Under the pieces are notes generated by a model. That model was not told the origin of the DNA. It worked only from the letters and a program-made list of their open reading frames with translations, and did not search any database. A stretch of 33,814 bases of DNA from Spirochaetota bacterium (lineage in GTDB: Bacteria > Spirochaetota > UBA4802 > UB4802), in the NCBI GenBank assembly GCA_026414805.1, contig JAOAIH010000025.1, positions 4,115 through 37,928 on the forward strand, given 5' to 3'. Shown here in pieces: positions 12,164 to 31,363 of this stretch. Within the stretch, counting starts at the first letter, position 1. Each line of letters opens with the position of its first letter. Made by a program: the position numbers and the translations under genes.

Positions 12164-12191
12164 TTGACAAACATATCACATGTAATATCAT
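12164..12191 (+). promoter_or_regulatory. Putative sigma-70-type promoter of the sugar-acid operon
   Basis: TTGACA at 12164-12169, 16 bases, then TATCAT at 12186-12191 (five of six matches to TATAAT). It lies 42 bases before the preferred start codon of the first operon gene, in an AT-rich gap. An in-frame TTG inside this -35 box could be mistaken for a start codon. Confidence 0.5.
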
Positions 12192-12210
12192 CAGACCAGC
12201 TGATAATCAG
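12190..12210 (+). promoter_or_regulatory. Candidate operator: three ATCAG half-sites
   Basis: ATCAG (12190-12194), five bases, CTGAT (12200-12204), one base, ATCAG (12206-12210): overlapping inverted repeats that touch the -10 box and the likely transcription start. The position suits a repressor; the GntR/FadR protein encoded two genes later is the obvious candidate ligand-responsive binder, by inference only. Confidence 0.45.
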
Positions 12211-12232: not shown

Positions 12233-13231
12233 ATGATTAAAATTGCAGAACTTATCCCTCCCCGCCCATCGCCACTGTGGAAGCTGGTGAAACAGTGTGG
12301 GGTAGAACATGTGGTGGGGGGTATGCAATTGTATGCAGGATGGGAGTCGCTCCCTAAAGACTTTTGGCCATGGAGTTACAATTCATTAGTGCATATTAAA
12401 ACTGCATATCACGATGCAGGATTTAAACTGGAGGTTATTGAATCCCGTCCACCAATGGAAAAAATTAAGTTAGGCCTTCCCGGCAGGGATGAAGAAATTG
12501 AAAATATCATAATGCTTATACAAAACATGGGCAAACTTAGCATTCCTGTATGGTGCTATGAGTGGATGCCTGTGTTTGGATGGACAAGAACTTCAACTAC
12601 TACGCCAATTCGCGGTGGCGCGCTGGCAACTTCGTATGACCATTCACTGATGGAAAATGCTCCAATGACCGAATATGGAGTAATCACAGAAGAAACATTA
12701 TGGAAAAATCTTGAATATTTTTTAAAAGCTGTAATACCAGAAGCTGAACGCGCAGGGGTTAAACTTGCCATGCATCCGGATGATCCACCTCTCTCGCCTA
12801 TCCGTGGTGTGGCACGAATTATGTGTTCGGTTGAAAATTTCCAGAAGCTTATAGATCTTTATCCAAGTCCAGCCAACGGCATTGCGCTATGCCAGGGAAA
12901 CTTTGCACTTATGACAGATGATCTTCCATCTGTAATCAGAAAGTTTGGAAGGCAGAAAAAAATATTTTTTGTTCACTTTAGAAATGTGAGGGGAACTGCA
13001 TACAAGTTTACTGAAACGTTTCACGATGATGGGATGATTGATATGTATGAATGCATGAAGGCATACTATGAGATTGGCTACGATGGGGTAATGCGTCCTG
13101 ATCATGTTCCCACTATGGAGGGAGACAGCAACGATAATCCTGCATACTCGTCAATAGGCAGGCTCTTTGCTTTGGGATATATGAAAGGTTTATTGGAAGC
13201 AGTTGAAAAAAGCCAAAAGGTCAAACGGTAA
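12233..13231 (+). CDS. uxuA: Mannonate dehydratase-type enzyme (UxuA family)
   Basis: 332 residues with the TIM-barrel motifs of D-mannonate dehydratase: a start on KIAELIPPRPSPLWKL, the metal-site segment KLAMHPDDPPLSPIRG, a conserved LCQGNFA, and the HFRNVRG and RPDHVP segments near the end. UxuA converts D-mannonate to 2-keto-3-deoxygluconate in hexuronate breakdown. The reading frame is open back to a TTG at 12164, but that TTG is the -35 box; ATG at 12233 starts the family-typical MIKIAEL and has GAGAT upstream. It is first in a nine-gene run that also encodes a KDG-type kinase, which supports the role. Slightly short for UxuA, so a sister activity on a related sugar acid is possible. 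Confidence 0.82.
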   Translation: MIKIAELIPPRPSPLWKLVKQCGVEHVVGGMQLYAGWESLPKDFWPWSYNSLVHIKTAYHDAGFKLEVIESRPPMEKIKLGLPGRDEEIENIIMLIQNMGKLSIPVWCYEWMPVFGWTRTSTTTPIRGGALATSYDHSLMENAPMTEYGVITEETLWKNLEYFLKAVIPEAERAGVKLAMHPDDPPLSPIRGVARIMCSVENFQKLIDLYPSPANGIALCQGNFALMTDDLPSVIRKFGRQKKIFFVHFRNVRGTAYKFTETFHDDGMIDMYECMKAYYEIGYDGVMRPDHVPTMEGDSNDNPAYSSIGRLFALGYMKGLLEAVEKSQKVKR

Positions 13232-13939
13232 ATGTATATGGATACCATACAGCCAGTAAAGCGAAGCAAACTTACAGAATCCATAGTCAATGTGCTTTTG
13301 ACTAATATTAAAAATGGCACTCTTGCACCCGGGAGTAAATTGCCGCCCGAGCGCGAATTGATGAAGAAATTACAGGTGGGGCGTTCCACATTGCGTGAAG
13401 CAGTACAATCGCTTGCACTGATGGGCATATTGGATGTAAAACCAGGCGAAGGAACATTTGTAAGAGCTATCTCCAAAGAAGAAATCATTGGGCCTCATAT
13501 CTTTGTTCCAATAATTGATAATGAAAGTATGGCAGATTTTTTTGAAGCACGCCTTTTGATAGAACCGCGCATTGCTGCATTGGCAGCTTTGCGAAGGAAT
13601 GAGCAGGATATAGTAGCAATTGAACAGACATTGTCAAAAACAAAGCAAAGTATAAATAGCGGTGGGGATGTGGATCGATGGGCAGGACAGTTCCATTTAC
13701 AGATTGCAAGAGCTTCTAAAAATATTGTATGCGTCCGCTTTCTTGAAGCTATACTCTCATTTCTTGTGGGCAAAAGGGAAAATGCCGAGCACAGTAAAGA
13801 CTTTTTGCAATGGGAATATGAATCGCATGAACGCATCTTTAAAGCAATTACAAAAGGAGATGATACTAAAGCGTATAAAGCCATGGAGGAGCATATACAG
13901 GCAGTTTTGCAGTGGTATAAAAAATTAGATATTGTATGA
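13232..13939 (+). CDS. GntR-family (FadR/FCD type) transcriptional regulator
   Basis: 235 residues. A winged helix-turn-helix at about 12-75 (GSKLPPERELMKKLQVGRST, ending in PGEGTFV) is followed by an FCD ligand domain (about 90-225) whose metal-binding pattern is visible as FH in QFHLQIARASKN, SHERIF and the final EEHIQAV. FCD regulators of this kind (UxuR, ExuR, LgoR) typically bind sugar acids such as fructuronate or related metabolites and repress their catabolic operon. Its ATG follows the stop of the dehydratase gene directly; an in-frame ATG at 13238 is an alternative. It most likely controls the promoter at 12164. Confidence 0.88.
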   Translation: MYMDTIQPVKRSKLTESIVNVLLTNIKNGTLAPGSKLPPERELMKKLQVGRSTLREAVQSLALMGILDVKPGEGTFVRAISKEEIIGPHIFVPIIDNESMADFFEARLLIEPRIAALAALRRNEQDIVAIEQTLSKTKQSINSGGDVDRWAGQFHLQIARASKNIVCVRFLEAILSFLVGKRENAEHSKDFLQWEYESHERIFKAITKGDDTKAYKAMEEHIQAVLQWYKKLDIV

Positions 13940-13958
13940 TGTACAACGGAGGTTTGCT

Positions 13959-16799
13959 GTGTATTGCAAAATTTTGTGTGTGCTAATTGCAATTGGATTT
14001 TATACAGGCGCATTTGCTGATACACCCATTTCAATCACACCAACACCATTAGTGTATAAATACCGCTCTACCTATATGCAACGATTCATTATTGAATCAC
14101 ATCAAGAATATGATGGGGAGATAGTTATTACAATTGATGGCAATGTAACAAAAACAAAAATTACACAAAAAACAAAATTCATTGCTGTTGATTGTAAACG
14201 CGATTTGGTAGGCTCATTTTCAAATGTCAAATTGGTGCTGCGCAAAAACGGTGTGATTGCGGCGCAGCATTCCATCACAATTCCCCCGGTAAAGAATTGG
14301 AAAATCTATTGTGTGCCCTTTGCACATATCGATATAGGCTTTACGCAATCGCAAAAAAATATACAAAAACAGAATCTGCAAAATGTTGAAACGCACCTTG
14401 AGCTTTGTAAAAAGACGCAACGCTATCCGCAGAACTCACAATTTAAACTTTTTACAGAAGTAAGCTGGCCTGTTATTGAGTATCTTAATGCAAAAGAAAT
14501 ACCACAGGAAAGAAAAAATGCGCTCATTGTGCAACTTAAAAAAGGCAATTTTGAGTTGGGAGCATTTGTTATCTCCCATCAAAATCGGTTTATGAGCCCG
14601 TATGCTCTGCTTGCATCATTGCAACATACGCTGAAAATTGCACATGCACATAGCATCCCCGTCAAAACTGCCTGCATACACGATGTGATGGATTTTTCTA
14701 AATTACCAAAAGTGCTATACGCAAATAACATTCCATATTGTATGATTGGTCCAAACGATTCGCGGTATAAAGTGCCACCTCTTTTTTATTTAGCTTCTCC
14801 TGATAAAAGCGCAAAAATTTTGGTATGGCATACGGTGGGCCTCAATGGATATGGTGAAAATTTTGATTTGAATATGCGGCTGACACTGCCTTTCAACGAC
14901 GAAAAATTTACCCTCATGGAAAATAGCATTGCACGTCACTTAGCACAGCTTGAAAAAGGATATCCAACAGAAGAGATCTTGCGATATTATGATTACAATC
15001 AAGCCCACTGGAATTACCCTTACGATGCCTATCTTTTACCATATTACCCTTCTGAAGGTGGCGACAATCAACCCCAAACAATTACGCCTTCAGAGATTGC
15101 TAAAAGATGGAATGAAAAATTTATAAATCCAAAGATAATTATTGCAACACCAAAAGAATTTTTTGAATATGTGGCAGAAAAATACACTGGTCAAATCCCG
15201 CTACTACAAGGGGAACTGCCACCATTCTGGGGCGAACAGATATACCTGGATTTTATTCAGGTTGATCCAGAGCGCCTGTCTATCAATTACTGGTACGATA
15301 CTGAAGTGTTTATGCGCGGAGTAGATATGGTGCAACTCATACTTCGCGGCAATCCTGTTGAAAGTAGCAAACACATAGACCAAATCCTTGATGGCTACAT
15401 GGCAATCATACTCAACAATGACCACAATCCAAGACCCGTGCCTTTTGGGAAAACGCACTATACGTCGCAGGATGTGAAAGACTGGATGCACACCCGCAAC
15501 AGATGGGTATATACGCCTTTAGGCACTTTAAAAGATGCCAAATATCCTGAGCATAGTCACAAAGCACAAGGAGAATGGACGTTGCTTCCCGTGCACACAA
15601 ATCCTGTTACTCTGGACAATGCATTTTACCGCATTTTATTTGATACCAGTAAAGGGTGCATTGTCAGCATATTTGACAAACAGCTACAAAAAGAATGGGT
15701 GAATGCCAAGCATCAGTACGGTTTTAATCAATATGTGATTGGCGTTCGCGGCGAAAATGTGGCACAACGCAATTACTTTGAAACCATCCAGGGATTTAAA
15801 AAAGTTACGTCAACATTATATACTAATAGCAACAATGATTACAGAATAGTTGTTGAGGGGTCAGAGCGATCATACTACAAGGGGATGGATGTACTTTCAC
15901 AATTTTTACACAATGCCTTTGGGGTAAAGCTTCCACCGTTTTTATTAAAAATAGCGTACTTTTTCTATCAGCTGTTTACGCCGTCGCTTTCGCTTACACA
16001 GGAAATTATCATTCCCGCACAGCAAAAGCGCATTGATTTTGTTCAGCATTTTACAGGAACTGCACCACAAATTGCCGAACATTACATTTCCTATCCTGTG
16101 GCTGCAGAGGAGTTGTTGTATGATTCAGCATTTTCTGTTGTGAAATGGGGAAGCAATGAGACAGAAAGCACCCTTATCCCTGCTGTGAAAAATGTTGCAC
16201 CATTTAGAAGCATCAACGATACGCTTTTCCCATTTCAGTGGATGCATGGGGTGCCTTCATCTTTTCATTGTGATGGGTTTGTCATGCACAAAGACCGCTT
16301 GCACTATGCGGTGTTTATCCCACACAATAGCAAGGCGATAGTACCTGATAAAAACTCAAATGCATTTTATCATTGCTGCATTGGATGGTCGCTGTGGGGC
16401 ACAGTAGGCCTTGGACGAAATTTACCAGAAACTATCGCATTTAAAAGTACCTTTACAAGCTTTACCGCAAAAACGAAAAATGAAGCCATAGCTACCGCGT
16501 ATAATTTTAGTTTTGATCAGCTGGGCTTCAATAGGCCAGTGACGTTTGAGACCCACAATGCAAATGTACGGGTTATCTATAATCAGCCAGTTGCAAGAAA
16601 TAAAGTTGTGATAGGTGTTTTTGAATTATCAGGCACAACACAGACCGCTCAACTACGTGTGAATACAAAACGTGCGTTACACGCATATTATTCTGATATC
16701 AATGGGAAAAAGATCAAACCAGCCAAACTATTTAACACTTCAATTTCAGTACGTTTGAATCCGCACCAGCTTTCGTTTATAACATTGGAATTATTATAA
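13959..16799 (+). CDS. Secreted glycosyl hydrolase family 38-like protein (alpha-mannosidase type)
   Basis: 946 residues. The start is a GTG at 13959, with GGAGG at 13948-13952 six bases before it; this start makes residues 1-20 a clean signal peptide ending in GAFA. After a small beta domain, a GH38-type catalytic region begins at about residue 118 with the H-x-D pair in AHIDIGF (His123, Asp125). The nucleophile candidate is Asp242 or Asp245 in HDVMDFSKLP, in place of the common D-x-FG pattern, so substrate use may differ. The C-terminal half is the beta-sandwich region of GH38. It probably cleaves alpha-mannoside or a related sugar from a glycan outside the cytoplasm. It lies 19 bases after the regulator gene, inside the sugar-acid operon. 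Confidence 0.7.
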   Translation: MYCKILCVLIAIGFYTGAFADTPISITPTPLVYKYRSTYMQRFIIESHQEYDGEIVITIDGNVTKTKITQKTKFIAVDCKRDLVGSFSNVKLVLRKNGVIAAQHSITIPPVKNWKIYCVPFAHIDIGFTQSQKNIQKQNLQNVETHLELCKKTQRYPQNSQFKLFTEVSWPVIEYLNAKEIPQERKNALIVQLKKGNFELGAFVISHQNRFMSPYALLASLQHTLKIAHAHSIPVKTACIHDVMDFSKLPKVLYANNIPYCMIGPNDSRYKVPPLFYLASPDKSAKILVWHTVGLNGYGENFDLNMRLTLPFNDEKFTLMENSIARHLAQLEKGYPTEEILRYYDYNQAHWNYPYDAYLLPYYPSEGGDNQPQTITPSEIAKRWNEKFINPKIIIATPKEFFEYVAEKYTGQIPLLQGELPPFWGEQIYLDFIQVDPERLSINYWYDTEVFMRGVDMVQLILRGNPVESSKHIDQILDGYMAIILNNDHNPRPVPFGKTHYTSQDVKDWMHTRNRWVYTPLGTLKDAKYPEHSHKAQGEWTLLPVHTNPVTLDNAFYRILFDTSKGCIVSIFDKQLQKEWVNAKHQYGFNQYVIGVRGENVAQRNYFETIQGFKKVTSTLYTNSNNDYRIVVEGSERSYYKGMDVLSQFLHNAFGVKLPPFLLKIAYFFYQLFTPSLSLTQEIIIPAQQKRIDFVQHFTGTAPQIAEHYISYPVAAEELLYDSAFSVVKWGSNETESTLIPAVKNVAPFRSINDTLFPFQWMHGVPSSFHCDGFVMHKDRLHYAVFIPHNSKAIVPDKNSNAFYHCCIGWSLWGTVGLGRNLPETIAFKSTFTSFTAKTKNEAIATAYNFSFDQLGFNRPVTFETHNANVRVIYNQPVARNKVVIGVFELSGTTQTAQLRVNTKRALHAYYSDINGKKIKPAKLFNTSISVRLNPHQLSFITLELL

Positions 16800-16812: not shown

Positions 16813-17517
16813 ATGGCACCAGTATATTCGTATGATGAAATTATAAAGCTCTGCGAGCGTCTTGAAAAAACGTATACGCCTGCAGTATGCGACACACTTG
16901 ATGAGATGGGATTTATGCATCAGGCATTGTGCTCAGGGTTTACGCCAATCATGCCAAAGGCTGCTATAGCTGGGCCTGCATTTACCATGGAGGAAGCAAA
17001 AACGCGAAAAAGCACGCGATTAAAAGAGTATGACCCTGAATTTGTTGCAAAGGTGCTTGAGGATCTCTTTGGCACCATGCAAAAAGGGCAGGTGGTAGCA
17101 GTCAATACCAATGAATTTTACGGCGCTGGTGCATGGGGCGAGCTTATGTCAACTACCTGCAAGTACTTTGGTGGAGTGAAAGGTGCAGTGGTTGATGGAC
17201 CTATCCGCGATATAAATCGAATTCTTGAAATTGAATTTCCAGTATGGGCACGTGGCAATATTCCAACGGATTCAATAGGAAGGGTTGATCTTGTGGGAAT
17301 TGGTGGCCCTATATGGTGTGGCGGCGTGAGGGTAAATCCCGGTGATATTATCTTTGCTGACTGTGATGGGGTAGTAGTTATTCCCATAAAGGATGTTGAT
17401 TTAAAGGAAGTAGTGGAAAAGGCAGAAGAAGTGGTACAGGCAGAGAGACGTTCGCGCCAGGAAATACGGCAGGGCAAGTCACTTCTTGATGTGTACCGTA
17501 AATACGGAAAGCTGTAA
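16813..17517 (+). CDS. RraA / HMG-aldolase family protein
   Basis: 234 residues. The family core GGVKGAVVDGPIRDI (Arg and Asp bind substrate and metal), the preceding GAWGELMSTTCKYFG, and GDIIFADCDGVVVIP are intact. Annotated members act as class II 4-hydroxy-4-methyl-2-oxoglutarate aldolase or oxaloacetate decarboxylase, or as the RNase E regulator RraA; the old label demethylmenaquinone methyltransferase is misleading. AGGAGG at 16800-16805 precedes the ATG. Since the operon makes and phosphorylates a 2-keto-3-deoxy acid but shows no KDPG aldolase, this pyruvate-aldolase relative is a reasonable candidate for the cleavage step (inference). Confidence 0.82.
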   Translation: MAPVYSYDEIIKLCERLEKTYTPAVCDTLDEMGFMHQALCSGFTPIMPKAAIAGPAFTMEEAKTRKSTRLKEYDPEFVAKVLEDLFGTMQKGQVVAVNTNEFYGAGAWGELMSTTCKYFGGVKGAVVDGPIRDINRILEIEFPVWARGNIPTDSIGRVDLVGIGGPIWCGGVRVNPGDIIFADCDGVVVIPIKDVDLKEVVEKAEEVVQAERRSRQEIRQGKSLLDVYRKYGKL

Positions 17518-17532: not shown

Positions 17533-18510
17533 ATGAAAACAGTAGTAGTTACCGGATGTTCTGGATATCTGGGACAACATGTAGTGCAAACGTTGCTCCG
17601 TGAAAAGTATGCAGTTACTGGCGTTGATATAAAGGAATCACCTGCAGAAGGGCAGAGCAATTTTACGTTTGTGAAAGGCGATATCGTTGATAGCGAATTG
17701 GTAATGAAAGCCTGCAACAATGCTACTGCTATAATACATTGTGCTGCTGCGCTTGCGCAATTTGTCAAAGATGCACAGCGTATGTATGATATAAATGTTG
17801 TTGGTACAAGGAACATCGTTGAAGTGTGTAAAAAGCGTGCAATTAAACAACTTGTCTTCATCTCGTCAGTTGAGGTGTATGGCATTGATGTTCCCGTTCC
17901 ATGCCCTGAAGATGCACTGCTTAACCCTGTGTGCCCGTATGGAGTACACAAAGTTATAGGTGAGCACATGTGCATGGAATTAGCAGATAAAGGGCATGGT
18001 GTTGCAATTCTACGGCCACCAACAATAAATGGTCCAGGGCAAAATGAGCCTTTTTTAGTGGCACAAATGGAAGCAGTGTATAAGGGAAAACCTGTGATAC
18101 TGCCAGGTGGTGGTAAAACAAAATTACAGATGGTGGATGTGCGCGATGTTGCACAGGCAGTGCTGCTATCTCTAAAAAAAATAAACAGGGGATTGCTCAT
18201 TGCAAATATTGCAAGCGATAATGTCCCAACACTACACCAGCTTGTTTCAGCTCTCTTTACACATGCAGGTAAAAAAGAAAAGATAATCTCAGTGCCTGCT
18301 GCGTTAGCCCGTGCACTTGTTAAAGGATTGTCACGTATCAAGCTTTCGCCTCTAGAGCCGCAACATTTAGAGATAGCGCTGCGAGATTATGTATTTGATA
18401 ACACGCGTGCAAAGAAAGTGTTAGGCTGGAAACCAACTAAAAACGATATTGAAAGCGCTATTGATGCGTATGAGTGGTTTGTCAACAGTTCCCGAAAAGA
18501 AATAAATTAA
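17533..18510 (+). CDS. NAD-dependent epimerase/dehydratase (extended SDR)
   Basis: 325 residues. The N-terminal Rossmann motif is VTGCSGYLGQH, Asp35-region GVDIKES points to NAD(H), the catalytic set is SSVEVYG with YGVHK (Tyr-x-x-x-Lys). Extended SDRs include sugar epimerases, nucleotide-sugar dehydratases and uronate dehydrogenase. In this operon a role in oxidising or epimerising a free sugar acid is more likely than nucleotide-sugar work, but the substrate cannot be read from the sequence. It follows the RraA-like gene by 15 bases with an AAGGAG ribosome site. Confidence 0.82.
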   Translation: MKTVVVTGCSGYLGQHVVQTLLREKYAVTGVDIKESPAEGQSNFTFVKGDIVDSELVMKACNNATAIIHCAAALAQFVKDAQRMYDINVVGTRNIVEVCKKRAIKQLVFISSVEVYGIDVPVPCPEDALLNPVCPYGVHKVIGEHMCMELADKGHGVAILRPPTINGPGQNEPFLVAQMEAVYKGKPVILPGGGKTKLQMVDVRDVAQAVLLSLKKINRGLLIANIASDNVPTLHQLVSALFTHAGKKEKIISVPAALARALVKGLSRIKLSPLEPQHLEIALRDYVFDNTRAKKVLGWKPTKNDIESAIDAYEWFVNSSRKEIN

Positions 18511-18534
18511 AAAATTGTATTAGGAGGTTTGCCT

Positions 18535-19686
18535 ATGGAGAAACACAAAGTTAAAGCTGCAGTAATGACGGATTTTAAAAAAATGGAGATTCAATATTTT
18601 CCATATCCAGAAGCTAAAGAAGATAGTGCAGTTGTAAAAATGATAATGTGTGGAATATGCGGAACTGATAAACATTTGTATGAGGGCAGGCATCCTGCGC
18701 CACTTTTTGTTAAATTTCCAATGATTCTAGGGCATGAGAATATTGGGATTATTGAAGAAATTGGTCCTATTGCAAAAGTGAAAATGGGAGTACAGGGAGA
18801 AGAACTAAAACCTGGTGACAGAGTAACTTGGTATGCTGGAATATTATGTGGAGAGTGTTACCATTGTAGGTTTTTACCATCAAATCATGCTGCTACATTA
18901 TGTTTAAATGCAAAAGGGTATGGCCAAAATTTATCATGTGCTGACTATCCTCATTTATTTGGTGGGTATTCAGAGTATTGTTATCTATTGCCTGGAGTGT
19001 GGGTTTACAAAATTCCTGAAGATATGCCAGATGAAATTGCAGTATTAACTGATGTGTTTGCTGCAACTGTTGGAGTAAGAAAAGCCATGATGCCATATCC
19101 AGTATTAAAAGAAGGATTTGGACCAGGAGATACAGCAATAATAATTGGATCAGGACCAATTGGAATAGCAGCTGGTATTACTGCGAGGATAGCTGGTGCT
19201 TATAGGGTTATCCTTGTGGGGAAAATTAAAGAAAGGTTAAAAATTGCAGAAGAAATTGGAGTCTTTGATCATATTGTAGATGTTGATGAATATCCTGATT
19301 TCTGGGAACGTTCATTATACATTCTTTCTTTAACGCCTAGAAATGTTGGTGCTGATATGGTGGTTGAATGTGCAGGGGTACCTGAAGCGGTACCAGAAGG
19401 GTTAGCGGTACTTAGGAGAGGTGGAGTATTTGTTGAATTGGGCAATTTCCTTGATACAGGAAATACAACAATAAATCCATTTGCTGATTTATGTTTTAAG
19501 GATGTAATTTTAATCGGTCAATGGTCATGTCCACCACAATCTTTTGACGTTGCTTTGAAAATAATGGAATTAGCTATGAAACAGGGGATTCCACTGCAAA
19601 AGTTGGTAACTCATAAATTCAGTATAGATGAGGCTGAATCTGCACTGCAAAGAAGTGACTATATGAAAGGAGTTATCATTCCATAG
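18535..19686 (+). CDS. Zinc-dependent alcohol/polyol dehydrogenase (MDR family)
   Basis: 383 residues. Catalytic zinc ligands are in CGICGTDKHLYEG and GHENIGIIEEIG; four structural-zinc cysteines are visible in LCGECYHC and TLCLN; the NAD-binding motif is GSGPIGIAAG. It resembles threonine/sorbitol/glucose dehydrogenases and would oxidise a hydroxyl of a sugar or sugar acid. The ATG at 18535 has AGGAGG at 18522-18527; an in-frame TTG at 18529 is rejected. The gene is visibly more AT-rich in silent positions (TTA, AGA, GGA codons) than the genes on either side, and lacks the CTATCGCC octamer, which suggests a separate origin within the operon. Confidence 0.88.
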   Translation: MEKHKVKAAVMTDFKKMEIQYFPYPEAKEDSAVVKMIMCGICGTDKHLYEGRHPAPLFVKFPMILGHENIGIIEEIGPIAKVKMGVQGEELKPGDRVTWYAGILCGECYHCRFLPSNHAATLCLNAKGYGQNLSCADYPHLFGGYSEYCYLLPGVWVYKIPEDMPDEIAVLTDVFAATVGVRKAMMPYPVLKEGFGPGDTAIIIGSGPIGIAAGITARIAGAYRVILVGKIKERLKIAEEIGVFDHIVDVDEYPDFWERSLYILSLTPRNVGADMVVECAGVPEAVPEGLAVLRRGGVFVELGNFLDTGNTTINPFADLCFKDVILIGQWSCPPQSFDVALKIMELAMKQGIPLQKLVTHKFSIDEAESALQRSDYMKGVIIP

Positions 19687-19706: not shown

Positions 19707-20408
19707 ATGAATATTTCATTTACATTAATTGGCCAGGCAACAGTTGTTATGGATATAGATGGTGTAGTCTTTATGACCGATCCTTGGTGGGGATCGTTTG
19801 AGTTTTTGCGGGCTGTTCCAATTGTCTGTGATCCTGAAGGCATTTCACCGCTTCATTACATGCTGGTTTCGCACAATCACATTGACCACTGGTGTAACAG
19901 AGCTATCGCCCTTGCAAAAGAAAAAAATTGTACAGTTATAGGTTCAATTAAAGCAATAAAGCGTGCCAAAAAACGTGGGGTGAAAAATCTTAAGGCTCTG
20001 ACCCCAGGAGAAAGTGTTGATTGCAATGGCATTATTGTTGGTGCGGTCCCTGCGTTTCATCCTTTTGCAAAGGATGCAATTGGTTTCATTGTACAAAAAG
20101 GCAATGTTACACTGTATTTTTCGGGAGATACCCTGTATACGGAAAATTTACGCAAGGCTCTGACCCCATACTCGGTAACTATCGCCATGATACAGGTTGC
20201 CTGTTCAACGTACCCTCTGGTGGGCAAAGATGGAATGGATTTAGAGGCAGCAGCGCGCTTTGTTGCAGAAGTCAAACCTGAAATGATAATACCTATACAC
20301 TATCAGATAAAGGGGAAATATTGTACTGATGCGCAGCTACAAAACTGGGATGTTGGTGCACAAAAAATTATTTTGCCACATGGCAGAGAGTTCCATTTGA
20401 AATTGTAG
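19707..20408 (+). CDS. Metallo-beta-lactamase-fold hydrolase, UlaG-like
   Basis: 233 residues. The metal-binding motif SHNHIDHW (H-x-H-x-D-H), the Asp in FSGDTLYTE and the final histidine in IIPIHYQ are all present, and MNISFTLIGQATVVMDIDG is the usual start of the UlaG-like group. UlaG itself opens L-ascorbate-6-phosphate lactone; relatives include other lactonases and metal-dependent hydrolases. In a sugar-acid operon with a dehydrogenase, a lactonase that opens the sugar lactone made by that enzyme is the simplest reading (inference). Two copies of the CTATCGCC octamer lie in the gene at 19903 and 20179. Confidence 0.8.
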   Translation: MNISFTLIGQATVVMDIDGVVFMTDPWWGSFEFLRAVPIVCDPEGISPLHYMLVSHNHIDHWCNRAIALAKEKNCTVIGSIKAIKRAKKRGVKNLKALTPGESVDCNGIIVGAVPAFHPFAKDAIGFIVQKGNVTLYFSGDTLYTENLRKALTPYSVTIAMIQVACSTYPLVGKDGMDLEAAARFVAEVKPEMIIPIHYQIKGKYCTDAQLQNWDVGAQKIILPHGREFHLKL

Positions 20409-20433
20409 CAATATAATTCATATGGAGGAAAGT

Positions 20434-21750
20434 ATGATAGAAAAACCACCCTCTGGTTTTAACCTTATCAAAGTGTTGGGACCTGGTCTTGTGTGGTCGG
20501 CAAGTGCAATAGGGGTGTCAGAGCTTGTGTTTGCTACCCGCTCTGGCGCATTATTTGGATATTTGCTCCTATGGGCGCCGGTGGTTTCGCTTGCCATGAA
20601 ATATGCTATCTTTGAACTGGTTGGCCGCTACACCATCGCAACAGGGGAGAATGTTTTGATTGCATTTGCACAGGTTGAAATAGATTGCAAGCTTTTCAAA
20701 CTTAAAACTGGCTGGGTAATAACACTTTTCTGGATAGTGTTTATTGCAAGCGTTTCCGGGATGGCAGGAATTGCATTATCTGTGGGAAGTTGCATCTATG
20801 GACTTTTTCCTGCAATTTCAATGGAGGTGGCAACGGTGTGTTCGATAGTAACTGTTGGAATAATCCTATATTTGGGAAGTTATACAACTCTGGAAAAAAT
20901 ATCCAGAGTACTTGTTTTCATAATGATACTATTTTTAGTATATGCATTAATTGAAACAGCGCCTAATCCTGCCCAGATGGCACAGGGGCTTGTTCCTCGT
21001 GCGCCCTTTCATACGTTGCGCGAGCTTATACCACTTTTGGGGTGGACTGGTGCTGGTGCAATTGGTGTGGTGTGGTACTCATTGTGGATAGAAGGAAGTA
21101 AACGTGGTAAAGGCACTAACACCGTAGATACAGACGACGACAAACACAGGATTACGCAATGGATAAAAATTAATCAGATAGATTTGAGTATTAACACTCT
21201 TATCACCGCACTATTAACAGTATTGTTTTTGATTGCAGGTGCGGTGATATTATATCCCAAAGGCATAGTTCCTAAAGGTGAGCAATTGGGACTGCAGATA
21301 TCGCGCATTGCAGGGGAGAGCTTTGGCAAAGCTGGCGAGATAATTTTCCTTGTTGGCATCTTTGGCACACTGTTTAGCACATTGCTTGCAAATATTGATG
21401 GGCTATGCCGTGTAGCATCTAACTCTGTGTGGTATCAGCGCAAGAAAGATGGTGATGTGAAACTCAATTACTACAGGTTATTTGTCCTTGTCTATGTGGT
21501 GCTCACTGCGCTTTTTGCAGTGGTATTCCCTGCACCGGTAATACTTTTGCAAATTTCTGCAATCATTGATACGGTTTTTCTGCCACTTGTGATTGGACTA
21601 GGCATTTACATATGTCACACACATCTGCCAGCAATCTTTCGTCCGGGCAAAACACTCACAATAACTGCAATAGCGTCAGCGCTTTTTTTTACGTTTTTTA
21701 TTGGACTATTTTTCTGGGCTGTGATAATGAAAGTTAACTTTTCAATGTAA
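20434..21750 (+). CDS. Nramp-fold transporter lacking the usual metal-binding motif
   Basis: 438 residues with about 11 hydrophobic helices. The first helix begins LGPGLVWSASAIGVSELVFATRSGALFGYLLLW, in register with the Nramp signature GPGF..A....DPGN..T....GA..GY.LLW, but the DPGN metal-binding bend reads differently (IGVSE), and the helix-6 Met-Pro-His is not seen. It is therefore a member of the wider Nramp/APC superfamily that is unlikely to be a plain Mn/Fe importer; uptake of a sugar acid or another organic solute fits the operon better (inference). GGAGG at 20424-20428 decides for ATG 20434 over the upstream ATG 20422, which overlaps that site. Confidence 0.75.
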   Translation: MIEKPPSGFNLIKVLGPGLVWSASAIGVSELVFATRSGALFGYLLLWAPVVSLAMKYAIFELVGRYTIATGENVLIAFAQVEIDCKLFKLKTGWVITLFWIVFIASVSGMAGIALSVGSCIYGLFPAISMEVATVCSIVTVGIILYLGSYTTLEKISRVLVFIMILFLVYALIETAPNPAQMAQGLVPRAPFHTLRELIPLLGWTGAGAIGVVWYSLWIEGSKRGKGTNTVDTDDDKHRITQWIKINQIDLSINTLITALLTVLFLIAGAVILYPKGIVPKGEQLGLQISRIAGESFGKAGEIIFLVGIFGTLFSTLLANIDGLCRVASNSVWYQRKKDGDVKLNYYRLFVLVYVVLTALFAVVFPAPVILLQISAIIDTVFLPLVIGLGIYICHTHLPAIFRPGKTLTITAIASALFFTFFIGLFFWAVIMKVNFSM

Positions 21751-21759
21751 ATAACATCT

Positions 21760-22788
21760 ATGAATACTAACATGTTCGATAGCTCAAAGTATTTTACCTG
21801 CTGGGGCGAGGTGCTTTTGCGCCTATCACCTCCTGCTACTCAGCAATTAATGCAGACAAATGTATTTCACTCTTATTTTGGTGGTGCTGAAGCTAATTGT
21901 GCAGTGATGCTGTCGCAATTGGGGATAAAAACAAAATTAATTACTGCATTACCTGATAATGAATTAGGGCATGCTGCATTGCGCTATTTCAGATCGTTTG
22001 GCATAGATGTAAATGACATCAGATTGGTGAGCAACTCACGGCTGGGGCTTTATTTTTTTGAAAAAGGTATTGGCGTTAGGCCATCACACTTACTCTATGA
22101 TAGAGCTCACAGCGCATTTGCATTAATACAAAAAGGTGACATCAACTGGAGGGAGTCTTTAAAAGACTGTGGGTGGTTTCATACAACTGGGATAACGCTT
22201 TCACTATCGCCGGCAATAGTTGAAGAAACAATGAAAGCCTGCGACATTGTGAAGAGTAATCGTGGGGTTGTATCGTTTGACATTAACTATCGCCACACAT
22301 TATGGAAAGATATAAAGATGGCTAAACGCATGATTTGTGAATTGGTAAAAAAAGTAGATGTGTTAATTGGGAATGAAGAACATATCAAGATGCTTTTATT
22401 GTCAGAGAATCTACCACACTATCACTATAATGATAGTATAGATTATCTTTTTACAAATTTTACAAATTTGAACAGTATATTGCTAACACATCGATATGGT
22501 ACAACCGCTTCTGAGGTTGAGATAGGAGCTGTAGCAGCAACACGTGATACTATAACAGAATTAAAAATTAGAAAACTGCACAACGTTGTTGATCGTGTAG
22601 GTTCAGGTGACGCTATGGCAGCAGCATTTATGTACGGATTAATGAGTCGATACACCTTAGAACACTGTGTTGCTTTTGCCGTTGCAGCTGGGGCACTAGC
22701 GCATATGATTGATGGAGACAATTTTATTGTGAGTGAAAGTGATATTGTTACAGTAATGGAGGATAAAAGCTGGCAGTTAAAACGGTGA
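21760..22788 (+). CDS. kdgK: PfkB-family sugar kinase (2-keto-3-deoxygluconate kinase type)
   Basis: 342 residues with the ribokinase fold. FGGAEANCAVMLSQLG is the substrate lid and first signature; DRVGSGDAMAAAFMYGL is the second PfkB signature with the catalytic Asp and anion hole; NYRHTLW is typical for the KDG kinase branch. It would phosphorylate 2-keto-3-deoxygluconate, the product of the operon's mannonate dehydratase. It starts nine bases after the transporter gene with no clear ribosome site, so coupling is likely; ATG at 21772 is an alternative start. Two CTATCGCC octamers fall in it (22204 and 22287), in different reading frames. Confidence 0.82.
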   Translation: MNTNMFDSSKYFTCWGEVLLRLSPPATQQLMQTNVFHSYFGGAEANCAVMLSQLGIKTKLITALPDNELGHAALRYFRSFGIDVNDIRLVSNSRLGLYFFEKGIGVRPSHLLYDRAHSAFALIQKGDINWRESLKDCGWFHTTGITLSLSPAIVEETMKACDIVKSNRGVVSFDINYRHTLWKDIKMAKRMICELVKKVDVLIGNEEHIKMLLLSENLPHYHYNDSIDYLFTNFTNLNSILLTHRYGTTASEVEIGAVAATRDTITELKIRKLHNVVDRVGSGDAMAAAFMYGLMSRYTLEHCVAFAVAAGALAHMIDGDNFIVSESDIVTVMEDKSWQLKR

Positions 22789-23059: not shown

Positions 23060-23966
23060 ATGTTAAAAGATACATTAAAATCAGCTCTTAATATCCATAA
23101 CTTAAGTGACAAGATAGTAAAATATATCTTTGCTGTGGTAGGATTTTTGTCAGTTTCGTTTTTGTTTTTAATAATGATATTTCTTTTTAAAGAAGGGTTT
23201 CCAATTTTTAAAACTGTTAGTTTAAATGATTTCCTTTTTGGAACAAGCTGGTATCCAACATCAGAACCGCCTAAATTTGGGACCCTACCTCTTATTGTGG
23301 CATCACTCTCGGTTACATTTATTGCTGCGCTCATAGCGGTGCCATTCAGTTTGGGCATAGCTATCTATTTATCCGAATTGGCTCCCGCACTTGTTCGTGA
23401 AATTGTCAAGCCTGCAATTGAACTTATTGCATCCATTCCATCGGTTATCATTGGCTTTTTTGGTATGGTTGTTATTGCTCCATTTTTACAGGATCACTTT
23501 GATATTGATACGGGATTAAATCTATTTAACGCGTCACTAATGCTTGCATTTATGGCCATACCAACAATTGCAAGTATCTCGGAGGATGCCTTGTCATCGG
23601 TGCCGGTGTCGTTAAAAGAAGCATCGTATGCCCTTGGTGCAAACCGTTGGCAAACAGGTACACATCACCATGCCGGCAGCCCTTTCTGGTATATGGACAG
23701 CTATTATATTGGGCATTGCACGGGTTCTTGGTGAAACCATGGTGGTGCTGATGGTAGCTGGTGGTGCAACCACATTCCCTACATCGCTATTTGACCCGGT
23801 AAGACCTCTCACTGCTAACATTGCAGCCGAGATGGCAGAAGCATCATATCGCAGTGATCATTACTATGCCTTATTTGCAATTGGCATTATATTGTTTTTA
23901 CTTACAATGCTTTTCAATGTCATTGCCAACTATCTCTCAATGAAATATAAATTCAAATATCATTAA
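23060..23966 (+). pseudogene. pstC: Phosphate ABC transporter permease PstC, interrupted by one frameshift
   Basis: The first frame (23060-about 23655) gives the N-terminal membrane helix and the permease core to YALGANRWQT; the second frame (about 23656-23966) continues with VHITMPAALSGIWTAIILGIARVLGETMVVLMVAGG and the last helices. The two parts join exactly inside the conserved EAA-type loop (family ALGA.RW.T....LPAAL.GI), and spacing suggests two bases are missing near 23655-23657. PstC with PstA forms the inner-membrane channel for phosphate. All other parts are intact and pstA follows directly, so a sequencing or assembly error is at least as likely as true inactivation. Confidence 0.85.
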
Positions 23967-29543: not shown

Positions 29544-30371
29544 ATGAAGGTCAAGAGTTTTTTAATTTTTATGATGATAGCCCTAATAGGCTCATTGTCA
29601 ATTGGTTTTTCACAAACTAAAGGTTCCAAGGTAGTTATTAAAGGTTCAACAACAGTATTGCCGATAGCTCAGAAAGCACTGGAAGCATTCTATGAAAAGA
29701 CAAAGATAGTAATAAGCCTTTCTGGTACAGGTTCGGGAGACGGGATAAAATCGCTCATTGATGGTAGCTGTGACATTGCAAATTCTTCAAGAGAAATGAA
29801 ACCCGAAGAACTGAGTTTGGCACGATCAAAAGGCGAAAAGATTAAGGAAGTTGCCATTGCCTATGACATGATAGTCCCAATTGTGCATCCTTCAAATCCA
29901 GTAAAAAACCTTTCAATGGCACAGCTTAAGGCAATTTATGAAGGAGCTATCACCAACTGGAGCCAGGTAGGTGGCAACAATGAACGGATAGTTGTAATTT
30001 CACGTGACTCAAGCTCTGGTACATTTGAGGTATGGGAAAGTAAAGTAATGAAAAAATCAGAAGTTCGTAAGGATGCATTGTTGCAGGCATCCAATGGTGC
30101 AATAGTATCAGTAGTTGCAAAGAATAAAAGAGCTATCGGTTACATTGGATTTGGCTATCTTGATGACAGGGTAAAAGCACTTACTGTGAATGGTGTTGAA
30201 CCTACAATCCCTAATGGCAAATCAGGCGTGTATCCAATTTCCCGTAAATTGTACATGTATGTGAATGAAGTGAAAATAAAACCTGAAGCTCAGGCTTTTA
30301 TAGATTTTATCCTTTCAAAAGAAGGACAGCAGATTGTAAAGCAAACAGGGTTTATACCGCTCACTGACTAG
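29544..30371 (+). CDS. pstS: Phosphate-binding protein PstS, secreted form
   Basis: 275 residues. A signal peptide covers about residues 1-23 (hydrophobic FLIFMMIALIGSLSIGF, no lipobox Cys), so the product should be free in the periplasm. Phosphate-binding motifs are GSTTVLPI, GTGSGDGIKSL, and SRDSSSGTFEVWE. It delivers phosphate to PstCA. AGGAGG at 29532-29537 precedes the ATG. A strong terminator follows at 30403, then a second, closely similar pstS. Confidence 0.93.
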   Translation: MKVKSFLIFMMIALIGSLSIGFSQTKGSKVVIKGSTTVLPIAQKALEAFYEKTKIVISLSGTGSGDGIKSLIDGSCDIANSSREMKPEELSLARSKGEKIKEVAIAYDMIVPIVHPSNPVKNLSMAQLKAIYEGAITNWSQVGGNNERIVVISRDSSSGTFEVWESKVMKKSEVRKDALLQASNGAIVSVVAKNKRAIGYIGFGYLDDRVKALTVNGVEPTIPNGKSGVYPISRKLYMYVNEVKIKPEAQAFIDFILSKEGQQIVKQTGFIPLTD

Positions 30372-30402
30372 GTATAGTGGTGCACATAAAGTGTTTTTTA
30401 GG

Positions 30403-30428
30403 GCGCTACAGCAATGTAGCGCTTTTTT
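30403..30428 (+). terminator. Rho-independent terminator after the first pstS
   Basis: GCGCTACA, loop GCAA, TGTAGCGC, then TTTTTT: a perfect 8-bp stem with T-tract, 31 bases after the stop codon. It separates the two pstS copies into different transcripts or attenuates the second. Confidence 0.88.
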
Positions 30429-30535
30429 ATTAAAAAAAAGTTGCAAAAGATTGGGGCACTTCATAGGGTATAAGTATAAATAGTGAAAGGTGTGTTTATA
30501 AGAATGAAATTCTATTCCCAATTGGAGGTTATGAT

Positions 30536-31363
30536 ATGAAAATCAAAAAGAGTGTACGCATTGTTATAGCTTTTCTTATAGCATTAGCACTTAGTGTATC
30601 ATGTTCTAAAGAGTCAAGGGATAAGGTTGTTGTAAAAGGGTCAACAACAGTGTTGCCCATTACCCAGAAAGCATCAGAGGTTTTCTATGAAAAAAATAAA
30701 ATTGTTATCTCGCTTTCTGGTACAGGGTCGGGCGATGGCATTAAGTCCCTTATAGATGGCAGCTGTGATATTGCAAATTCCTCACGTGAAATGCATCCAG
30801 AAGAATTGGCACTAGCCCAACGTAAAGGTGAGATCATAAAAGAGGTGCCGATAGCATTTGATATGATAGTTCCTATAGTCCATCCTTCAAATTCTGTATC
30901 AAATCTTACTTTGCATCAGTTAAAGGCAATCTATGATGGCTCGGTCAAAAACTGGAAGGATGTTGGGGGAAAAGATGAAGCAATAGTTGTTATTTCGCGT
31001 GATTCAAGCTCAGGGACATTTGAGGTATGGGAATCAAAGGTAATGAAACATGTTGAAGTGCGAAAAGATGCACTGCTGCAAGCTTCTAACGGAGCTATCG
31101 TACAGACTGTATCACAAAACCCAAAGGCAATTGGGTATGTGGGCTATGGCTATTTGAATGAAAAAGTTAAACCATTATTTGTAAATAATGTAGAACCAAC
31201 AATAGAAAATGGCAAAAGTGGCAAATACCCAATTGCACGAAAGCTCTACATGTATGTGAATGAAGTAAAGATAAAACCAGCCGCGCAGGCATTCATAGAT
31301 TTCATGCTTTCTGATGAAGGACAAGCAATAGTGAAAGAGGCAGGGTTTATTCCAATTAAATAA
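30536..31363 (+). CDS. pstS: Phosphate-binding protein PstS, lipoprotein form
   Basis: 275 residues, the same length as the copy before it and closely similar over the whole mature part: GSTTVLPITQKA, SGTGSGDGIKSLIDGSCDIA, SRDSSSGTFEVWESKVM and the C-terminal GFIP are shared. The leader differs: IAFLIALALSVSC is a lipoprotein signal with lipobox LSVSC and Cys23, so this product should be tethered to a membrane. GGAGG ends about nine bases before the ATG. It lies beyond the first copy's terminator, so it probably has its own promoter, though none is clear in the 107-base gap. Confidence 0.92.
   Translation: MKIKKSVRIVIAFLIALALSVSCSKESRDKVVVKGSTTVLPITQKASEVFYEKNKIVISLSGTGSGDGIKSLIDGSCDIANSSREMHPEELALAQRKGEIIKEVPIAFDMIVPIVHPSNSVSNLTLHQLKAIYDGSVKNWKDVGGKDEAIVVISRDSSSGTFEVWESKVMKHVEVRKDALLQASNGAIVQTVSQNPKAIGYVGYGYLNEKVKPLFVNNVEPTIENGKSGKYPIARKLYMYVNEVKIKPAAQAFIDFMLSDEGQAIVKEAGFIPIK

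Follow-up and report, generated by a model that had tools for sequence, protein, structure and literature searches.

A divergent, Nramp-related transporter encoded within a conserved carbohydrate operon of a Spirochaetota bacterium has lost the canonical metal site, and probably imports the sugar acid or sugar on which the operon acts, not metal. The gene was analyzed in its context within a stretch of 33,814 nucleotides (the window, to which positions refer unless another locus is named).

Organization and conservation of the operon

Between the start of uxuA (12233) and the end of the KDG kinase gene (22788), neighbouring genes overlap or stand no more than 25 bases apart; they encode the following products.

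12233-13231 (+): uxuA-like mannonate dehydratase, 332 aa (PF03786, 315.8 bits; start taken from orthologues, open reading frame listed from TTG 12164)
13232-13939 (+): GntR/FCD transcriptional regulator (PF00392 and PF07729)
13932-16799 (+): GH38-like glycoside hydrolase, probably exported (PF01074, 30.9 bits; hydrophobic N-terminus)
16813-17517 (+): RraA-like aldolase (PF03737, 112.3 bits)
17533-18510 (+): extended SDR, NAD-dependent epimerase/dehydrogenase (PF01370, 148.1 bits)
18529-19686 (+): zinc alcohol dehydrogenase (PF08240/PF00107)
19707-20408 (+): metallo-beta-lactamase (MBL)-fold hydrolase, possible lactonase (PF12706, 63.5 bits; best PDB match TM_1162)
20434-21750 (+): Nramp-related transporter, 438 aa (mechanical open reading frame listed from ATG 20422, 20422-21750)
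21760-22788 (+): PfkB-family KDG kinase (PF00294, 121 bits; closest in the PDB is T. maritima KDG kinase 2afb, E 9.2e-53)

In addition to its Pfam match, the uxuA product scores above the cut-off of NF003027 (251.9 bits) and just under that of TIGR00695 (186.8 bits), and the N-terminus of the GH38-like protein was judged by eye to be signal-peptide-like. None of the other operon products matches a transporter family in Pfam or NCBIfam, as the sequence-only reading of a carbohydrate operon without any other transporter had it, leaving the Nramp-like protein as the only carrier candidate within the operon. Family models run on the neighbours found no metal regulator within or adjoining the operon, and no pxpABC neighbours were found at the window locus.

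The cluster, including the Nramp-like gene, is kept in all five genus genomes. Gene order is retained in G032, G007 and G131, although in the last of these the contig stops within the kinase gene. G117 has uxuA at a distance, past the kinase gene and on the opposite strand, and its outer flanks are different; the block gntR-GH38-RraA-SDR-MBL-Nramp-KDGK is intact, with the Nramp gene between those of the MBL hydrolase and the kinase. The zinc alcohol dehydrogenase gene is missing at the corresponding position in the four other genomes. A further G117 cluster (L072:3092-13309), which starts divergently from the gntR operon, encodes a LacI regulator, FMN and FAD oxidoreductases, an SDR, a Gfo/Idh/MocA dehydrogenase and an MFS_2 sugar transporter.

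The GH38-like protein, whose substrate would name the sugar of the operon, is rare, occurring in 6 of 296 phylum genomes and as weak matches in two plasmid records. In the sixth genome (G204) a fragment of 545 residues is encoded at the end of an 8.9-kb contig that carries no other cluster genes, and phmmer gave no PDB relative for the GH38-like protein (window 13932-16799; also L071). A homologous operon with a swapped transporter was also sought through the GH38-like protein in the 296 phylum genomes and the plasmids, and no second operon was found.

Elsewhere in the window, a KwaA/KwaB pair of the Kiwa anti-phage system (31899-33776, minus strand; KwaB 1.1e-78, KwaA 7.5e-63) adjoins a short type I specificity subunit fragment. 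Two phosphate-type substrate-binding proteins of 275 aa each are encoded in tandem (29544-31363, plus strand), and pstC (23060-23966, plus strand) is apparently split by a frameshift into overlapping frames of 224 and 112 aa, in contrast to the single 302-aa frame of G032; the split looks like a sequencing error or a broken gene.

Predicted pathway and metal requirement

The operon appears to serve mannonate-type catabolism, its predicted enzymes pointing to hexonate breakdown. UxaC (PF02614) and the UxuB family (PF01232) are absent from all five genus genomes, the same searches being positive in 7 of 14 control genomes, which rules out the glucuronate route as the source of mannonate. Mannonate must then either enter the cell from outside or arise from mannose through an oxidizing enzyme plus a lactonase. 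The SDR and the MBL hydrolase could be the enzymes of the latter conversion, their activities being guesses. As the GH38-like enzyme looks exported and the other enzymes look cytosolic, a carrier for its product would be needed.

Enzymes of the UxuA, MBL and RraA types employ divalent metals. The main rival reading, which we regard as rather unlikely, is that a divalent cation (Mn2+, Fe2+ or Mg2+) is still imported through a rebuilt site and serves these metal-dependent enzymes. It owes its rank to two Nramp-related proteins of catabolic operons with manganese phenotypes, namely YcsG/MntG of B. subtilis (PMC10448178) and MumT of the urea catabolic operon of A. baumannii (PMC5050338), for both of which those reports give genetic evidence. 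Also in its favor, the Nramp-like gene is the sole PF01566 match in each of the five genus genomes, and matches to ABC-3 metal permeases in these genomes are weak (21 to 42 bits). Against it stand the presence of FeoB in four of the five and the lack of a metal regulator at the operon.

Gene start, homology and fold

A start at 20434 was preferred over 20422 because GGAGGA precedes ATG 20434 and the orthologues in L017 and L018 share that start; residue numbers are counted from 20422, and subtracting 4 gives the numbering of the 438-residue protein. The protein encoded by 20434-21750 matches Pfam PF01566 (Nramp; 73.9 bits, cut-off 29.8) and NCBIfam NF037982 (Nramp_1; 113.7 bits, cut-off 50). 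Automatic annotation gives such proteins the name 'Nramp family divalent metal transporter', which most annotated plasmid matches carry. The PF01566 scores of the five genus proteins range from 71 to 88 bits, versus about 329 to 470 for the phylum's canonical and NRMT-like Nramps. Alignment of the window protein with nine canonical Nramps by hhalign gave a probability of 99.2% and an E-value of 2.6e-19 over 388 columns; a phmmer search of PDB chains with the single sequence gave no match even at E 10. The AlphaFold model, of middling quality (mean pLDDT 69, pTM 0.72, from a 15-row alignment), has DraNramp 6d91 as its best Foldseek match (E 2.7e-10), and VIA fold comparison with this structure gave Z 36.4 and an rmsd of 2.8 over 388 residues, the listed Nramps ranging from Z 28.5 to 36.4 and the next family reaching 27.7.

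Family models, hhalign and predicted fold thus agree with the Nramp homology first proposed for this gene from its sequence, and the protein is a member of the Nramp/SLC11 superfamily in the broad sense, by homology of full-length sequence and fold. The common fold by itself gives no function.

Helices 1, 3 and 6

Two segments of the protein correspond to the bends that form the canonical site.

20509-20523 (+): helix-1 bend IGVSE, replacing canonical [IM]DPGN (alignment; helix break between residues 29 and 32 of the model)
21043-21087 (+): helix-6 bend WTGAGAIGVVWYSLW, without MPH (alignment; helix break at residue 211 of the model)

In the hhalign alignment, canonical FIDPGN of helix 1 corresponds without gaps to AIGVSE, so that G31 stands in place of Asp and E34 in place of Asn; IGVSE is identical in the five genus members. 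In helix 6, M, P and H correspond to V216, V217 and W218 in a register that is uncertain by five residues; an alternative register, with the break at G210-G212, places small residues at these positions, and neither contains Met or His. The helix-3 glutamate that is invariant in canonical Nramps (E134 of DraNramp as numbered in PMC12873925) is replaced by G116. Apart from E34, no acidic, Asn, Met or His residue is left at the canonical metal-ligand positions. The replacement of DPGN by IGVSE and the missing MPH, both remarked on in the sequence-only reading, are confirmed by the alignment, and structure prediction, proposed there as a check, places breaks in helices 1 and 6 as expected for a LeuT-fold site. 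All three marks of canonical Nramps, namely DPGN, MPH (A/CxxM) and the helix-3 Glu, are missing, as is the DxxG-TxxA/T signature of NRMT (Mg2+) proteins, helix 1 having GxxE (GVSE).

The emptied ligand positions argue against metal import; on the other side, EleNRMT, an Nramp-related protein, carries Mg2+ with a changed site (PMC8806188). The loss of the canonical site might also be taken for the mark of a non-transporting sensor or of a gene losing function, for which there is nothing direct. The gene is under strong purifying selection (dN/dS 0.046 and 0.058), its product is the second best conserved of the cluster between the window and L015 (93.9%), and the frame is free of stops in all five genus genomes, so that this alternative is highly improbable.

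A promoter element shared with uxuA

Two features were recognized ahead of uxuA.

12164-12191 (+): promoter-like TTGACA-16-TATCAT ahead of uxuA (11 of 12 consensus matches; layout common to the six transcription units compared)
12186-12200 (+): operator-like element TATCATCAGACCAGC overlapping the -10, probable GntR/FCD regulator site with predicted binding

Overall the promoter scan gave 37 sites versus 36.3 in shuffles, which is no evidence on its own. The 15-bp element, a new observation, is always found ahead of the Nramp/uxuA gene set: it occurs upstream of uxuA in all five genus genomes, overlapping or just past the -10 of a TTGACA promoter. The pattern TAWCATCAGACCAKC has exactly six occurrences in the five genomes (backward control, 0), once ahead of each uxuA and once in G117 ahead of the operon running from gntR through the Nramp gene to the kinase gene, so that all six stand at the uxuA/gntR-to-kinase gene set. 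As the pattern was derived from these promoters, its presence there is expected and the finding is its absence elsewhere. The gene set is split in G117 and the element precedes both units, indicating that both halves kept it; these are the only two copies in that genome, each oriented towards uxuA or the gntR operon.

The TATCATCAGACCAKC element is a putative operator of the GntR/FCD protein, and the shared promoter element suggests that the Nramp-like gene is co-regulated with the catabolic enzymes. The tie of the gene to a GntR/FCD regulon also weighs against the import of metal.

Relatives and their gene neighbourhoods

All 49 non-canonical rows of the alignment lack DPGN. In a second tree of 48 rows, from which long or distant rows were left out and where L126 still forms a long branch, the window protein falls within a clade of 16 rows (support 98/93), separate from the 'SGE' clade (99/98) and from the canonical, NRMT-like and IGPGT rows. 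The NRMT-like rows C_L084 and C_L086 are on another branch, and there is no grouping of the window protein with PxpT-like rows.

Annotated neighbourhoods were taken from 24 of 59 plasmid records; five loci of other motif groups (L057, L060, L061, L062 and L063) and a second Rubrobacter gene were left out of the context count. The G-motif loci include the following neighbours.

Microscilla: GH43/SusCD
Rubrobacter: UxaA/GntR
Streptomyces, two loci: four-carbon acid sugar kinase and PdxA (C4 sugar-acid genes)
Mesobacillus: CoA-transferase/thiolase
Rhodococcus: amidase (amidase/RidA)
Rhodococcus and Mycobacterium: FAD-oxidase/CoA-transferase
Natronorubrum: FAH/MBL

Catabolic clusters, sorted by hand and not blind, surround 10 of 19 G-motif plasmid loci (those listed and that of Halocatena) versus none of six canonical loci, all of which have DPGN and MPH, and mntR is a neighbour of 0 of 19 versus 3 of 6; the corresponding Fisher p values of 0.051 and 0.0087 come from a small sample of loci that are not independent. 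Consistent placement of the relatives next to metal-homeostasis genes, named at the outset as the pattern that would contradict a non-metal substrate, is thus not what was found.

Among individual loci, the plasmid of the archaeon Halocatena salina (L126:4605-7323) has an Nramp-related gene divergent from a mannonate dehydratase gene at a distance of 277 bases, with DHDPS-family and aldehyde dehydrogenase genes nearby. This dehydratase is 36% identical to that of the window over 306 residues, and the locus is an independent case of mannonate dehydratase beside an Nramp-related gene; as the Halocatena Nramp belongs to the SGE clade, the link is seen in two clades. Judged by their neighbours, the Halocatena, Rubrobacter and Streptomyces relatives would be expected to take mannonate, altronate-type and C4 sugar acids, respectively. 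Both associations would fit a metal importer too, and since UxuA-type enzymes need a divalent metal, the UxuA link alone cannot tell sugar-acid from metal import. Several relatives, for their part, adjoin enzymes that need no special metal, which speaks against metal import.

Counting against sugar-acid import, the closest proteins from beyond the genus (L019, L020, L023, L024 and L042) are not encoded in sugar operons: L042 is a lone gene, L019 lies near a xanthine/uracil permease gene, and the other three are beside kinase, antiporter and channel genes. Pfam searches of the neighbours of four Spirochaetota relatives revealed no catabolic cluster, and the neighbours of two Acidobacteria relatives had no Pfam match. 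In Roseomonas (L049) the G-motif gene follows siderophore genes, and in L044 an MgtC/SapB gene lies two genes upstream of it.

The IGPGT group can be tied to PxpT, as a LamB/YcsF (PxpA-type) gene comes next after each of the four IGPGT genes examined in Flavobacteriaceae. In Haloarcula marismortui (L063:5983-10811) hydantoinase/oxoprolinase A and B genes come immediately after an IGPGT Nramp-related gene, a second oxoprolinase type adjoining a PxpT-like protein.

The varied enzymes next to G-motif and PxpT-like relatives (CoA-transferase/thiolase, amidase/RidA, FAD-oxidase; 5-oxoprolinase) indicate that substrates vary in the wider group, and would agree with import of another organic solute that overlaps the operon only in use, such as an amino acid, 5-oxoproline or a short organic acid, or with product export. 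At the window locus this is improbable, the operon enzymes pointing to hexonate breakdown and no other importer being encoded alongside. Taken together, the relatives in clusters with no evident metal enzymes, the GntR-type control and the loss of ligands from the site favor a sugar acid or sugar over metal.

Proposed function

We infer the substrate, coupling, binding residues and repressor of this system as follows. The protein would act as a secondary importer with a LeuT fold, one of the Nramp-related ('G-motif') proteins, and would take up the carbon substrate of its own operon. D-Mannonate or another hexonate is the likeliest substrate; the alternative is a hexose freed by the exported GH38-like enzyme. 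In the unwound part of helix 1, G-V-S-E might offer backbone amides and the serine to carboxylate or hydroxyl groups, comparable to the G-S-G bend of APC amino-acid carriers; E34, which replaces the metal-binding Asn, may hold substrate or a proton, and small residues (GAGA) may open helix 6 in place of Met-Pro-His. The SDR and MBL hydrolase may yield mannonate from mannose, UxuA would convert it to KDG and the PfkB kinase KDG to KDPG, which an aldolase, perhaps the RraA-like one, would cleave. The GntR/FCD protein would act as a repressor that switches transporter and enzymes together.

As a more tentative generalization, possible but held with less assurance than import of the operon's own substrate, SGE/SEL-type Nramp-related proteins may be importers of organic or sugar acids in which the helix-1 metal bend has become a glycine-serine-glutamate carboxylate bend, the window protein being the first hexonate (mannonate) member. 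If so, hexonate would be a substrate class unreported for the Nramp fold in the open-access literature searched, and many proteins named 'divalent metal transporter' would be misnamed. Should Nramp-related groups carry organic acids, the assigned function of a large gene set would change, and how a single fold passed from carrying solutes to carrying metals would be open to direct study. The operon offers a concrete substrate guess, and a regulator, for testing this.

Comparison with known systems

Nramp-related proteins are described as paraphyletic, with loss of DPGN and MPH as a known mark, in PMC12873925, so that the lack of DPGN is not new in itself; that work presents all groups except the NRMT-like and 'G-motif 3' ones as entirely uncharacterized. 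The G-motif proteins of that work resemble the window protein in having an Nramp fold without DPGN, MPH and helix-3 Glu, and a Gly at the Asp position, and the window protein presumably belongs to one of its named G-motif groups.

A new substrate class for the fold, as first suggested from the sequence, holds in part. The open-access literature searched yielded no published sugar-acid (hexonate) substrate; the one paper pairing 'Nramp' with 'sugar acid' (PMC12445098) was discarded, Nramp naming mouse genotypes in the text concerned. An organic substrate as such is only partly new, 5-oxoproline having already been tied to the PxpT/YcsG group: PxpT is reported to be needed for growth on 5-oxoproline, and an organic substrate is proposed for it (PMC13274462). 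MntG and PxpT share 50% sequence identity, yet different substrates are claimed for them (PMC13274462, PMC10448178). Like the window protein, PxpT/YcsG (MntG) is Nramp-related and belongs to a catabolic operon, which in C. glutamicum has a gene for a GntR-family regulator close by, according to these two reports. The likely PxpT orthologues have IGPGT and precede PxpA-type genes, whereas the window protein has IGVSE, falls in another clade and belongs to a hexonate operon. MumT is likewise described as a divergent Nramp in a catabolic operon (PMC5050338), with genetic evidence that points to Mn.

Canonical Nramps (DraNramp, MntH, DMT1) share their fold with the window protein, in which all metal ligands are replaced, and differ in an MntR-type versus a GntR-type context. 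EleNRMT also resembles it in fold (7qji, Z 33.9) and in having a non-canonical site, DxxG-TxxA/T there versus GxxE here. APC amino-acid carriers (Asc1, AdiC) have the LeuT fold and match the window model at Z 24-28, under every listed Nramp; the G(S/T)G carboxylate site described for Asc1 (PMC10998858) is similar to the glycine-rich helix-1 bend of the window protein, which reads GVSE and not GSG.
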